Source of the DNA: Desulforamulus putei DSM 12395
Lineage (GTDB): Bacteria; Bacillota; Desulfotomaculia; Desulfotomaculales; Desulfotomaculaceae
Assembly (NCBI RefSeq): GCF_900129195.1
Contig: NZ_FQUY01000002.1
Coordinates: 124,001 to 188,000 of the forward strand
Reading direction: 5' to 3'
DNA: 64,000 nt
The notes under the pieces: model-generated
The model's database searches: none
Told to the model about the DNA's origin: nothing
What the model saw: only the letters and a program-made list of their open reading frames with translations
Made by a program: the position numbers and the translations under genes
Part shown: one piece after another, positions 7,482 through 13,375 of the stretch
Layout of the letters: every line of letters begins with the position of its first letter
Numbering within the stretch: the first letter of the stretch is position 1

Positions 7482-8171
7482 ATGCGCCAGTTTCGTGTGC
7501 TGGTTGTGGATGATGAAGATAAAATTCGTCAGGTTATTGGCATTTATTTAACCAATGAAGGATACCATGTGGGGGAAGCGGTGGATGGCGAGGAAGCCCT
7601 GCGGAAGTTTAGAGCCGAGTCCTGGGATTTAATCGTGCTGGACGTCATGATGCCCAAAATAGACGGTGTCACCGTGTGCCAGGAAATCCGCAAGGTATCC
7701 AAGGTGCCCATCATCATGCTGACAGCTAAGAACGAAGAGGTGGACCGCATTTTAGGCTTGGAGTTCGGAGCCGATGACTATATGGGCAAGCCCTTTAGCC
7801 CACGGGAGCTGGTGGCCCGGATTAAGGCGGTCATGCGACGGGTGGGCAGCGAAGAGAAAAAAGAGGGGCATCTATTAAAATTCCCCGGCCTGTGTATGGA
7901 TTTAATCAGCCGGGAGGTGCTGGTTAAGGATAAGCCTGTCACCCTGACTCCCAAGGAGTTTGAACTCCTGGCACTGTTAGCCAAGTCCACCGGGCGAGCC
8001 TACAGCCGGGAGCAGCTTTTGGAGGAGGTCTGGGGTTTTGACTACTACGGGGATGTGAGGACCGTTGACACCCACGTCAACCGGCTGCGGGACAAGCTGC
8101 GGGCCGCCGGTGCCGGCAACTTCATTAAAACCGTCTGGGGCGTGGGGTATAAATTTGAGGTGGAAGCATGA
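7482..8171 (+). CDS. OmpR/PhoB-family response regulator
   Basis: 229 residues, full length. The receiver (about 1-120) has the acidic pair VVDDED, phosphoacceptor VLDVMMP, Thr in MLTAK and Lys in MGKPFSPREL. The C-terminal winged helix (about 130-228) carries LTPKEFELLALLAKS, SREQLLEEVWGFDYYG, VDTHVNRLRDKL and the closing TVWGVGYKFE. The ATG follows AAAGGAGGG. The stop overlaps the start of the kinase gene by 4 nt, so the two are co-translated. I infer that it binds the repeated TTGTAA-type sites upstream of the small metal-rich genes, because these sites cluster around this operon and have the geometry typical of this family. Confidence 0.95.
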   Translation: MRQFRVLVVDDEDKIRQVIGIYLTNEGYHVGEAVDGEEALRKFRAESWDLIVLDVMMPKIDGVTVCQEIRKVSKVPIIMLTAKNEEVDRILGLEFGADDYMGKPFSPRELVARIKAVMRRVGSEEKKEGHLLKFPGLCMDLISREVLVKDKPVTLTPKEFELLALLAKSTGRAYSREQLLEEVWGFDYYGDVRTVDTHVNRLRDKLRAAGAGNFIKTVWGVGYKFEVEA

Positions 8172-9631
8172 AGCTAAACAACATTGTCACCAAACTATGG
8201 GTCATCATGACCATTTTGGTGCTGGTGGTGATCGGTATAGCCGGGGCGGCCCAGACCAGCTTTATGGAAGGGCTGTACTATGAACAACAGGCCAAGCAAC
8301 TGAAAAACCTGGGCAATAAGGTGGCGGACATCGCCCGTTCCGAAGAGGATCCTGTCGCCCTGGACAACAAGGTAGCCCTGATTGCCGGGTTGTATAACGC
8401 CAACGTGATGATTTTAAATGAGATGGGTATTGTTATGAGCTGCCAGGGTATGGGCATTAGCACCAAGGATATGCCGATGGATATGAGTAATCCCCACCAC
8501 GGCCCCTTGAACATGGGGGATCTACAAAAACTGTACCAAGGCCAAGCGGTGGTACTCAAGGGCAATAACCCTTTCTTTAAAACCGACGTGTTGTCGGTGG
8601 GCATTCCCTTTAAGGACCATGATAATATTTACCGGGCGGTCATTATCCATGCCCCCCTTGAACCCCTGGCAGACGAGCTGAAACGATTGCAGATGCTGAC
8701 CATCTACACCGCCGCCGGGGGCATTGCCCTGGCCGCCCTGTTAAGTTTGATTTTCTCCCGGTTTATTTCTAAACCCCTGGTGAAAATGAACAAAGCGGCC
8801 CTGGCAATGGCCAGCGGCAATTATCAGCAGCGGGTGAACATCCAGACCAACGATGAAATAGGTCTGCTGGCCAACTCCCTCAATACCTTGGCCTCCCGGC
8901 TGCAGGAAAAAATCAGCCAACTGGAACAACAGGAACAAATCCGCCGGGAGTTTGTCACCAACGTGGCCCACGAAATCAAAACCCCCCTGGCGGTTATGCA
9001 GGGATTCACCGAAACCTTGATCGATGGGCTGGTTAAGACCGAAAAGGAGCGAGATGAATATCTACAGAACATTTTAGACGAAATCAACCGCCTTAAGCGG
9101 CTGGTCAATGAGGTGCTGGATTTAAAGCGCATGGAAGAGGGACACTTTGATTTTGACCAGGAACCCTGTGACTTGCGGGAGATTATAGACCGGGTACAGC
9201 GAAAGCTCACTCAACTAACTGTCGAAAAAGGTCTTCACTTGGAAATCAACATAGAAAAGAAGCTACCTTTGGTCACCTGCAACAGCGACCGCATTGAAAG
9301 GGTGTTGATAAACTTAATCGACAATGCCATCCGACATACTCCCGCTGGAGGCAAAATCTCCGTCTGTGTGACCACTAAAGCTAATCAGGTGCACCTGCGC
9401 ATCAGCGACACAGGTGAGGGCATTGCACCGGAGGATCTGCCCATGATCTGGGAGAGATTTTACAAAGGGGACAAGTCTCGCACACGGGTACAGGGCGGCA
9501 CCGGTTTGGGGCTAGCTATCGTCAAGAGAATTGTGGAGGGCCACGGGGGACAGATAAATGTAGAAAGTAAGCCAAACGAAGGAACCACCTTTAACATCGT
9601 GCTGCCGGTTAACCACTTAGGCGTGGAATAA
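8168..9631 (+). CDS. Membrane sensor histidine kinase with Met/His/Cys-rich external loop
   Basis: 487 residues. TM1 is about 10-28 and TM2 about 177-198, separated by an external sensor domain of about 145 residues. A HAMP linker follows, then HisKA (FVTNVAHEIKTPLAVMQ, phospho-His268) and HATPase_c (NLIDNAIRHTPAGG, DTGEGI, GGTGLGLAIVKRIVEGHGG). Between residues 90 and 116 the sensor loop has Met90, Cys92, Met95, Met102, Met104, Met106, His110, His111 and Met116, a density unusual for a PAS-like sensor and suggestive of soft-metal binding. It pairs with the regulator at 7482. An inverted repeat (AGACCCGGGA at 9639) follows the gene but lacks a U-tract. Confidence 0.93.
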   Translation: MKLNNIVTKLWVIMTILVLVVIGIAGAAQTSFMEGLYYEQQAKQLKNLGNKVADIARSEEDPVALDNKVALIAGLYNANVMILNEMGIVMSCQGMGISTKDMPMDMSNPHHGPLNMGDLQKLYQGQAVVLKGNNPFFKTDVLSVGIPFKDHDNIYRAVIIHAPLEPLADELKRLQMLTIYTAAGGIALAALLSLIFSRFISKPLVKMNKAALAMASGNYQQRVNIQTNDEIGLLANSLNTLASRLQEKISQLEQQEQIRREFVTNVAHEIKTPLAVMQGFTETLIDGLVKTEKERDEYLQNILDEINRLKRLVNEVLDLKRMEEGHFDFDQEPCDLREIIDRVQRKLTQLTVEKGLHLEINIEKKLPLVTCNSDRIERVLINLIDNAIRHTPAGGKISVCVTTKANQVHLRISDTGEGIAPEDLPMIWERFYKGDKSRTRVQGGTGLGLAIVKRIVEGHGGQINVESKPNEGTTFNIVLPVNHLGVE

Positions 9632-10431: not shown

Positions 10432-10623
10432 TTAAGCCATACCGCTCTGAATCTGCTGTAGGGAAAAATTACATTCCTCTATACAGAGAGCCAGATGGTG
10501 TGCGCCTTCGATTAGCTTGTTTTTTGCCATAGGGTCTGGTTCGGTGTTGGCCATGTTCCGTAATTGGGCCGAGATTTGCTGACAGGTCTGGATACACTGT
10601 TGAATTGTTTGGGCAGATTGCAT
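10432..10623 (-). CDS. 63-residue CxxxC helical-hairpin protein (half-size Csp-like)
   Basis: Starts at ATG 10623 behind GGAGGTGA. Two predicted amphipathic helices each carry one CxxxC: C10-IQT-C14 and C47-IEE-C51, with AHH before the second. The paralogue at 10662-10838 has Cys at exactly the same positions (10, 14, 47, 51). CxxxC pairs lining helices are the hallmark of four-helix-bundle copper storage proteins (Csp; DUF326-like), which are roughly twice this size and richer in Cys. I infer a minimal two-helix version that may dimerise into a bundle. There is no signal peptide, so it is cytosolic. It is the last gene of the operon beginning at 11587. Confidence 0.75.
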   Translation of the reverse strand: MQSAQTIQQCIQTCQQISAQLRNMANTEPDPMAKNKLIEGAHHLALCIEECNFSLQQIQSGMA

Positions 10624-10661
10624 TGTTGATTTCACCTCCGATAAGTTCCAATTAAAAGTTT

Positions 10662-10838
10662 TTAAGGCATCCGCATGAGGCTTTCGCACTGGCGGATACA
10701 CATCTCGATATGACTGGCACCTAAGGTAAGCATTTCCCTTACACCGGCGTTATTAATCCCGTTAGCCGAACTACGCAGATCGTTGGCTGCTTTGGTGCAG
10801 GTTTGGATACACTGGGCCAACTGCTGCTTATTTTGCAT
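10662..10838 (-). CDS. 58-residue CxxxC helical-hairpin protein (half-size Csp-like)
   Basis: Starts at ATG 10838 behind a GGGGTGGTGGG-type ribosome site; an in-frame ATG 18 nt upstream lacks one. CIQTC at 10-14 and CIRQC at 47-51 mirror the neighbour at 10432-10623, and both share AQCIQTC/QQCIQTC and a GA(S/H)H segment before the second motif. This is a tandem duplication. The ends are Met-rich (EMCIRQCESLMRMP). Cytosolic, no signal. Soft-metal binding, probably Cu(I), is inferred from CxxxC-on-helix geometry and from its place in an operon with a seven-Cys peptide. Other thiol-redox roles are possible. Confidence 0.75.
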   Translation of the reverse strand: MQNKQQLAQCIQTCTKAANDLRSSANGINNAGVREMLTLGASHIEMCIRQCESLMRMP

Positions 10839-10898
10839 TTTCCCACCACCCCTCATTTTTAAGTCAGAGTTATAGTCCCCGGTAGTATTACTTAATAT

Positions 10899-12004: not shown

Positions 12005-12726
12005 TTGAACAAAAAACTGCTGGTATCAGGATTATATTGATCGTGACACTTTTGTTATCCATACCTGTTCTAACTTCCGCCAATGTCAAGGAGAACTTTG
12101 GGGGCTGGGGAATGGGACAGGGACTGCCTGGAATGGGAATGATGGGTTCTTCTATGATGGGCATCCACGGCAACATGATGGGCAACGGCGGTATTGCCCT
12201 GAAGGAGCCGGTAGATTCTGAAAAGGCAGAGGAGTTGGTCAATGACTATTTAAAAACTTCAGGACTAGAGGGCATTTCCTTGGCGGAAGTGATGGAGTTT
12301 GATACCCACTTTTATGTGGAGACAAGGGAAGACCAAAGTGGCAAGTATGCCCAAGAGTTTATTTTGGATAAGCATACCGGCTCCATCAGCCCGGAAATGG
12401 GGCCCAATATGATGTGGAATGTCAAGTACGGGCATATGGGCGGTATGATGATGGGTTACAGTTCAGAGACCAGTGATAAGCCATCTGTTTCACCGGAGGA
12501 TTCTATAAAAATTGCCAACGATTTTTTAAAGGGAAACAATTCCGGTGAGACTGCGGCTGAACCCCATGAATTTTATGGCTACTACACTCTGCACACTCTT
12601 AAAGACGGAAAAATCGTTGGCATGCTCAGTGTCAACAGTGCCACCGGTCAAGTCTGGTATCACACTTGGCACGGTAACTTTGTCGGAATGGAAAGCGCCG
12701 ATGGTCATGCCCATCAGGAAGCATAA
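12005..12726 (+). CDS. Met-rich exported protein with two PepSY-like repeats; frameshift in the signal peptide
   Basis: A TTG at 12005 with AAAGGAGGGG upstream begins MNKK but stops after 11 codons. The long frame from 12037 has no ribosome site and starts inside a signal-peptide core (IVTLLLSIPVLTSA). One extra A in the A6 run at 12011-12016 would join them as MNKKTAGIRIILIVTLLLS, a textbook signal peptide. The mature protein has a Met/Gly-rich head (GMGQGLPGMGMMGSSMMG) and two PepSY-like units (EKAEELVNDYLKTSG...LDKHTGSI and SIKIANDFLKG...NSATGQVWYHTWHG). A central MGGMMMG stretch and a His-rich end complete it. The role is unknown; extracytoplasmic metal binding is plausible. Promoter E. 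Confidence 0.75.
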
Positions 12727-12771: not shown

Positions 12772-12815
12772 AAACTTACCCAAGATCATTTATAAGCATA
12801 AAAGGAGGTCTTAGG

Positions 12816-13004
12816 GTGGAGAACATTACCAATTACCTGCCACTGCTGTTGATTGTTTTAATGATAGCGATGATGTTCCGGGGTGGCGGCTGATGCGGCG
12901 GCCACAGTCACCGTAACCACGGGACTACCGGGCAGTTGCCCGGCAAAAAGAACTGTTGTGAGGATAAAGAAAATACTCATGAGGATAAAACAGGGAAAAA
13001 ATAA
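12816..13004 (+). CDS. Small membrane protein with in-frame TGA: candidate selenoprotein or nonsense-broken gene
   Basis: GTG 12816 follows AAAGGAGG at 7 nt. Codons 1-25 read VENITNYLPLLLIVLMIAMM then FRGGG, a single membrane span. Codon 26 is TGA (12891-12893). The same frame continues as CGGHSHRNHGTTGQ... with NCCEDKENTHED and stops at 13004 (62 codons), directly before a terminator. The continuation is rich in Cys and His, as expected of a real C-terminus (membrane span followed by Cys/His-rich tail). TGA stands where a Cys of a CC pair would be expected. Hairpins follow it: CCGU-AACC-ACGG with outer AGUC/GACU, and CCGGGC-AGUU-GCCCGG. Confidence 0.5.
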
Positions 13005-13045
13005 GAAACAGGTTCTCACACAGTGGGAGCCTGTTTCCTTTATAA
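13005..13045. terminator. Bidirectional terminator
   Basis: GAAACAGG / CCTGTTTC with pairing continued inward. T-rich tails lie on both sides (CCTTTATAA to the right; TTATTTTTTCCC on the minus strand). It serves the + gene ending at 13004 and the - gene ending at 13052. Confidence 0.8.
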
Positions 13046-13051
13046 AGGTAA

Positions 13052-13375
13052 TTATTTTATACCCATTGCTTCTTTGGCCATCGGCATTAGTTTGGGGTCC
13101 TTCATCATGGCCATGAAAGTATCTTTCATTTGGGGGGCGGCCATTATTTCCATCATAGGCTGCATCATGGACGGGTCGGACATGATTTTGACCATAGCTT
13201 CTCTGGTCTTTTGGTCACTCATGATCTTCACCATGTTTTTCTGCATATCGGAGTTGTGCATCATGTCCATCATGACGGGCATCATTTTTTCAGAGCTCAT
13301 GATTTTGGTCATTGATTGGCTTGCATCGGGGGAACTCATGGCCTCTATCATCATGTCAGGGTTCTGGTTCATCAT
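13052..13375 (-). CDS. Met-repeat protein (about 25% Met), probably 5'-truncated
   Basis: 107 residues with about 27 Met, organised as repeats of the type MxKIMSDxxxxxxMVKIMSD (SMTKIMSS, NMVKIMSDQKTREAMVKIMS, MMEIMAAPQMKDTFMAMM). No ribosome site precedes the ATG at 13375. The same frame upstream reads GGQLGCLQTAG, which looks like the end of a lipoprotein signal (LGC), but a stop precedes it and no start is found. The gene may have lost its signal sequence by deletion or frameshift. On the + strand, 13385-13522 encodes a start-less hydrophobic stretch (ALLALGLLIYKWKEK). Function unknown; Met-rich metal binding is plausible. Confidence 0.6.
   Translation of the reverse strand: MMNQNPDMMIEAMSSPDASQSMTKIMSSEKMMPVMMDMMHNSDMQKNMVKIMSDQKTREAMVKIMSDPSMMQPMMEIMAAPQMKDTFMAMMKDPKLMPMAKEAMGIK

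Follow-up and report, generated by a model that had tools for sequence, protein, structure and literature searches.

Prokaryotic selenoproteins have been sorted into 119 families or subfamilies in a 2026 review (PMC13188914), and selenocysteine (Sec) beside a Cys or in a metal site, in a copper or heavy-metal context, is known from the CopZ-family (2Fe-2S)-binding selenoproteins (cd10141) and the metal-binding selenoprotein NF041115 (PMC13188914). For Desulfotomaculum reducens, a selenoproteome of 8 selenoproteins was described in 2006 (PMC1794560). The pairing of Sec with Cys underlies homology-based searches for selenoproteins (PMC12013277), and the bacterial SECIS is modelled as a stem of 4-16 bp with a loop of 3-9 nt, a G in the first two loop positions, a distance of 16-37 nt from the TGA and an energy of -7.5 or lower (PMC13188914). 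According to the review, a subset of selenoprotein genes does not fit this model (PMC13188914), and in the test reported by the authors of deep-Sep, at least 40 known genes (13.0%) escaped bSECISearch (PMC12013277).

Here, we analysed a miniprotein gene with an in-frame TGA in a 64,000-nucleotide stretch of the Desulforamulus putei DSM 12395 genome (the window; Table 1). Around the TGA, the frame reads VENITNYLPLLLIVLMIAMMFRGGG-U-CGGHSHRNHGTTGQLPGKKNCCEDKENTHEDKTGKK, and it is open from the GTG to the TAA; with U standing for the TGA, the full conceptual product is VENITNYLPLLLIVLMIAMMFRGGGUCGGHSHRNHGTTGQLPGKKNCCEDKENTHEDKTGKK. We consider it very likely that the TGA is decoded as Sec and that a functional full-length protein results. 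SelB and tRNA-Sec would read the codon at 12891 as selenocysteine, aided by RNA structure just downstream, and the product would be a single-pass membrane miniprotein of 62 residues.

Table 1. Features of the miniprotein gene and its neighbourhood (positions in the window)
Feature	Positions	Strand	Remarks
Response regulator and histidine kinase pair, Met/His-rich sensor region	7482-9631	+	near the gene in 3 of 3 Sec species
Met/Gly-rich exported protein, upstream	12037-12726	+	adjoins the gene in 3 of 3 Sec species; similar ORFs at L081 7767-8483 and L082 7546-8304
Ribosome binding site AGGAGGT	12803-12809	+	read directly; 6 nt 5' of the GTG
Miniprotein gene with in-frame TGA	12816-13004	+	62 codons, GTG start at 12816, TAA at 13002-13004; TGA orthologues in G005 and G006, Cys homologues
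Predicted transmembrane helix YLPLLLIVLMIAMMF, residues 7-21	12834-12878	+	best 15-residue mean hydropathy 2.64
TGA, very likely a selenocysteine codon; codon 26, first position of the [U/C]C motif	12891-12893	+	TGA kept in three species; Cys in at least 39 homologues
Candidate SECIS hairpin 1, AGUC-A-CCGUAACCACGGGACU, bulged A	12906-12926	+	-8.3 kcal/mol; G-U at +19/+20 (0-based)
Candidate SECIS hairpin 2, CCGGGC-AGUU-GCCCGG	12928-12943	+	loop begins 40 nt after the TGA (G005: 37 nt)
Terminator-type hairpin, starting right after the TAA	13005-13037	+	15 bp, -22.9 kcal/mol; like an inverted repeat in G006

Reading the sequence confirmed the strong ribosome site, the TGA and the same frame open for 36 codons to the TAA, all of which the sequence-only reading had pointed out as signs of a possible new selenoprotein. 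That reading also placed the stop immediately before a terminator, and a terminator-type hairpin does begin at 13005, although a stricter pattern scan lists no terminator at the gene. In a single sequence, 36 open codons 3' of a stop would often be produced by chance. The miniprotein frame is nevertheless more than chance, because the TGA and the frame are kept in two other species, with differences mostly in third codon positions, and because Cys-Cys stands at the same place in more distant relatives. A gene caller halting at the TGA would cut the 62-residue protein to 25 codons or miss it.

Orthologues are present in 2 of the 8 other genomes of the genus, G006 (78% identical) and G005 (70%), and the Sec form is confined to this one genus, where it occurs in 3 of 9 genomes. 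Each orthologue has a single TGA, located at the corresponding codon, and its coding sequence continues beyond it; an in-frame TGA with coding sequence on both sides is thus conserved between three species. At the motif, the automatic protein alignment of G005 is off by one residue, and alignment by hand (FRGGGG-UC-GG) puts TGA on TGA. The segments CGG, HGTTGQLPG and CC are kept after the TGA in all three species, and over the 34-35 codons compared, the pairwise differences at codon positions 1/2/3 number 1/7/12, 9/4/17 and 9/4/19. Comparison of the window gene with G005 revealed no clear conservation of the DNA 3' of the TAA. The host assembly is a 3.1 Mb draft in 65 contigs, which leaves room for the suspicion that the TGA is a sequencing or assembly error for TGC or TGT; we regard such an error as extremely improbable, given that the same-codon TGA is found in G005 and G006, both of which are single-contig assemblies with many neighbouring differences. 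TGC, TGT or an indel at 12891-12893, named beforehand as an outcome that would speak against Sec, was not borne out, with TGA present in the genomes of three separate species. Alternatively, the TGA could be a true stop after a 25-residue membrane peptide, the downstream frame being a decaying remnant of a Cys form. The absence of the gene from the other members of the genus would accord with such decay, but TTGQLPG, CC and the frame persist across the three species, the differences being in excess at third positions, and an identical nonsense codon in all three beside a retained Cys codon is unlike decay, so that we give this alternative only a very slight chance. Neither sequencing error nor a decaying remnant explains the pattern of conservation.

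Decoding of the TGA as Sec is further supported by more distant homologues, mostly from the same phylum. Reading of their frames showed Cys-Cys at no fewer than 39 loci where the three Sec genes have TGA-Cys, in line with the expectation from the window alone that the TGA replaces one Cys of a CC pair and that homologues would have Cys at codon 26. The shared motif, GGG[U/C]CGGH, follows the membrane helix, and its second Cys is kept in the homologues. These relatives were collected with a profile of family proteins, first in the order and then in a wider sample of the phylum, where 44 of 398 genomes gave matches, the weakest of which are not all family members; a class-level search around G158 took in four genomes only. 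Among all family matches of the order and phylum searches, an internal TGA occurs only in the three genomes of the genus. A scan of public contigs with a Cys query added one Cys relative from Firmicutes and three from Omnitrophota, and the plasmid search gave no match. Low-scoring matches within the order, such as L039, L041, L043 and L046-L049, do not resemble members of the family, and L026, from the public-contig scan, is apparently a chance match. The most economical history suggested by these sequences would be a Cys-to-Sec change inside one genus, in which Sec took over from the first Cys of the motif.

The sequence-only reading had asked for selA, selB, selC and selD in the genome and named a lack of selB or selC as counter-evidence. 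All four, the complete Sec machinery expected of a bacterium with selenoproteins, were found: selA (E 9e-188) with selB (3.9e-113) directly 3' of it, selD (1.6e-122), which has one in-frame TGA of its own near the N-terminus, and the tRNA-Sec gene selC (70.9 bits versus a gathering score of 47, anticodon TCA). The formate dehydrogenase alpha genes of the host genome likewise have one in-frame TGA each, and each of the 9 genomes searched in the genus has selA. In G005, a formate-dehydrogenase-like match (G005:C1:2073009-2074022) contains three in-frame TGA codons and may be a pseudogene or carry several Sec residues. A genome-wide reading of TGA as Trp is ruled out, ordinary genes of the window ending in TGA (e.g., at 8169-8171). 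Partial read-through by a near-cognate tRNA, for Trp or another amino acid, would yield two products, one short and one long, neither of them containing selenium; the 25-residue form would be a membrane peptide by itself, and the only partly canonical SECIS described below would suit this explanation. Against it, the aligned residue in the homologues is Cys, neither Trp nor a mixture, and the genome possesses a complete Sec system and other Sec genes. We therefore consider near-cognate read-through improbable.

The sequence-only reading called its SECIS evidence mixed, and this caution was upheld, the RNA downstream of the TGA fitting the bacterial model only in part. Both hairpins were located as first described, with an AACC loop starting 21 nt and an AGUU loop starting 40 nt after the TGA. 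In the minimum-energy fold of hairpin 1, the G-U is paired and the loop is AACC; opening an 8-nt loop that begins with G-U leaves only about -5 kcal/mol. The same hairpin has -7.9 kcal/mol and G-U at +16/+17 in G005, and -4.4 kcal/mol in G006, where C replaces the loop G. Measured against the model, hairpin 1 has a suitably spaced G in two of the three species and falls to the weaker energy once this G is unpaired. Hairpin 2 obeys the loop and energy rules in the window and G005, but its distances of 40 and 37 nt are beyond and at the upper limit of the model range; in G006 it is imperfect, the AGUU loop being conserved and the stem having an A.C mismatch. A G-loop hairpin of equal strength arose in only 2-3% of codon-synonymous shuffles of the window gene and of G005, and the fold strength in G006 was not above that of synonymous shuffles. 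For comparison, in the formate dehydrogenase and selD genes of the genus, the hairpin loop contains GG[U/A], at +17 to +19 after the TGA. An Rfam scan around the miniprotein gene gave sub-threshold matches only. We regard the SECIS evidence as at most mildly positive, and the case for Sec decoding rests on the comparative evidence. With a SECIS that departs from the model, the three natural variants could be used to test what the SelB of this genus really needs.

What the miniprotein does may be approached through its neighbours. Genes for copper-translocating P-type ATPases lie beside or near the Cys homologues at L084, L085 (a fragment), L086 and L087. In G006 (L081), another is located at a distance of about 5 kb from the Sec gene; no such ATPase turned up within the first 19 kb of the window. 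At L087, the miniprotein, a prolipoprotein diacylglyceryl transferase, the ATPase and a methyltransferase are encoded in a row on a single strand, and the methyltransferase adjoining the Sec gene of G005 has an N-terminus closely similar to that of the L087 enzyme. At four loci (L057, L060, L061 and L069), the Cys miniprotein is naturally fused in frame to a CopZ-like HMA domain; L060, the only one scored, reaches 77 bits against 62 for TIGR00003 and 91.6 bits against 91 for chaper_CopZ_Bs. Some relatives continue instead into a YHS-like segment, DPVCGM...YYFCS. The Met/Gly-rich exported protein encoded upstream of the window gene has no Pfam match.

Further features were observed in the same regions. 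In two genomes that belong to different families, an Lgt gene adjoins the Cys miniprotein gene (L083 4260-5090 and L087 3708-4535). On the reverse strand of the window, small overlapping ORFs at 10432-10701 and 10662-10856 contain repeated C-x-x-x-C motifs (CIQTC, CIEEC and CIRQC); they recall the four-helix Cys-rich copper-storage proteins and have no Pfam match. Just after the miniprotein gene, also on the reverse strand, a Met-rich ORF of 107 residues (13052-13375) has weak similarity, below the cut-off, to GerD (spore germination).

From this context we lean, on balance, towards a membrane-anchored role in binding copper or another soft metal. The tail probably faces the cytoplasm, as suggested by the Arg and Lys residues after the helix and by the CopZ-like domains that occupy this place in some relatives. 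The protein would present Gly-Gly-Gly-[Sec/Cys]-Cys-Gly-Gly-His at the cytoplasmic face of the membrane, followed by the His- and Cys-rich tail; the motif would most likely bind Cu(I) or another soft metal, held at the membrane, and the metal could be passed to or from the copper P-type ATPase and CopZ. The main rival, itself compatible with Sec decoding, is a thiol/selenol redox role, for instance in reducing a protein that is exported or has a copper site. Uncharacterised selenoproteins are mostly thought to be redox proteins (PMC13188914), and G005 encodes a TlpA-like thioredoxin and a DsbD-type membrane protein a few genes downstream. However, the miniprotein is too short for a thioredoxin fold, and the CC or UC between glycines, the His-rich tail and the CopZ and YHS fusions point to metal binding, which makes a redox role the less probable of the two, though one of some weight. 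Beyond metal binding as such, we tentatively propose that Sec serves here as a ligand of Cu(I) or a soft metal and not as a redox catalyst, in a new membrane-tethered family with an atypical SECIS of two consecutive hairpins. Should Sec bind copper in this protein, it would offer a small and tractable system in which to study what justifies the cost of selenium at a metal site.

By the evidence at hand, drawn from openly accessible literature and from the sequences themselves, the miniprotein looks like a new and very small selenoprotein family; if so, the prokaryotic selenoproteome gains one family more. No entry in the list of 119 families is recognisable as this miniprotein by domain model or motif, the list for D. 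reducens is without any protein of this kind (PMC1794560), and no Pfam or NCBIfam model matches, above cut-off, the miniprotein or the segment that the scanned relatives share with it. The cd10141 and NF041115 selenoproteins are built on other domains, and the miniprotein has no NCBIfam match to these models. The motif letters of hypothetical selenoprotein DG (NF049953, GUxG) and of the YHS selenoprotein (NF041384, GxU) are compatible with GGGUCGG, but neither model is matched by the window protein or the relatives scanned. DUF2933 (PF11666) likewise comprises small single-helix membrane proteins with a His/Cys-rich tail, and one weak match in the family search, L045, is a DUF2933 member, whereas this model has no match to the window protein or to the true Cys homologues that were tested. 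The direct homologues are the members of a widespread, unnamed family of Cys miniproteins associated with copper pumps, which this analysis brings to light: a transmembrane helix, RGGGCCGGH and a His-rich tail make up these proteins, and they are similar to the window protein in length and share its helix, the GGG-x-C-GG-H motif and the His/Cys tail, differing from it in having Cys rather than Sec and, in some bacterial members, in being fused to CopZ or YHS.
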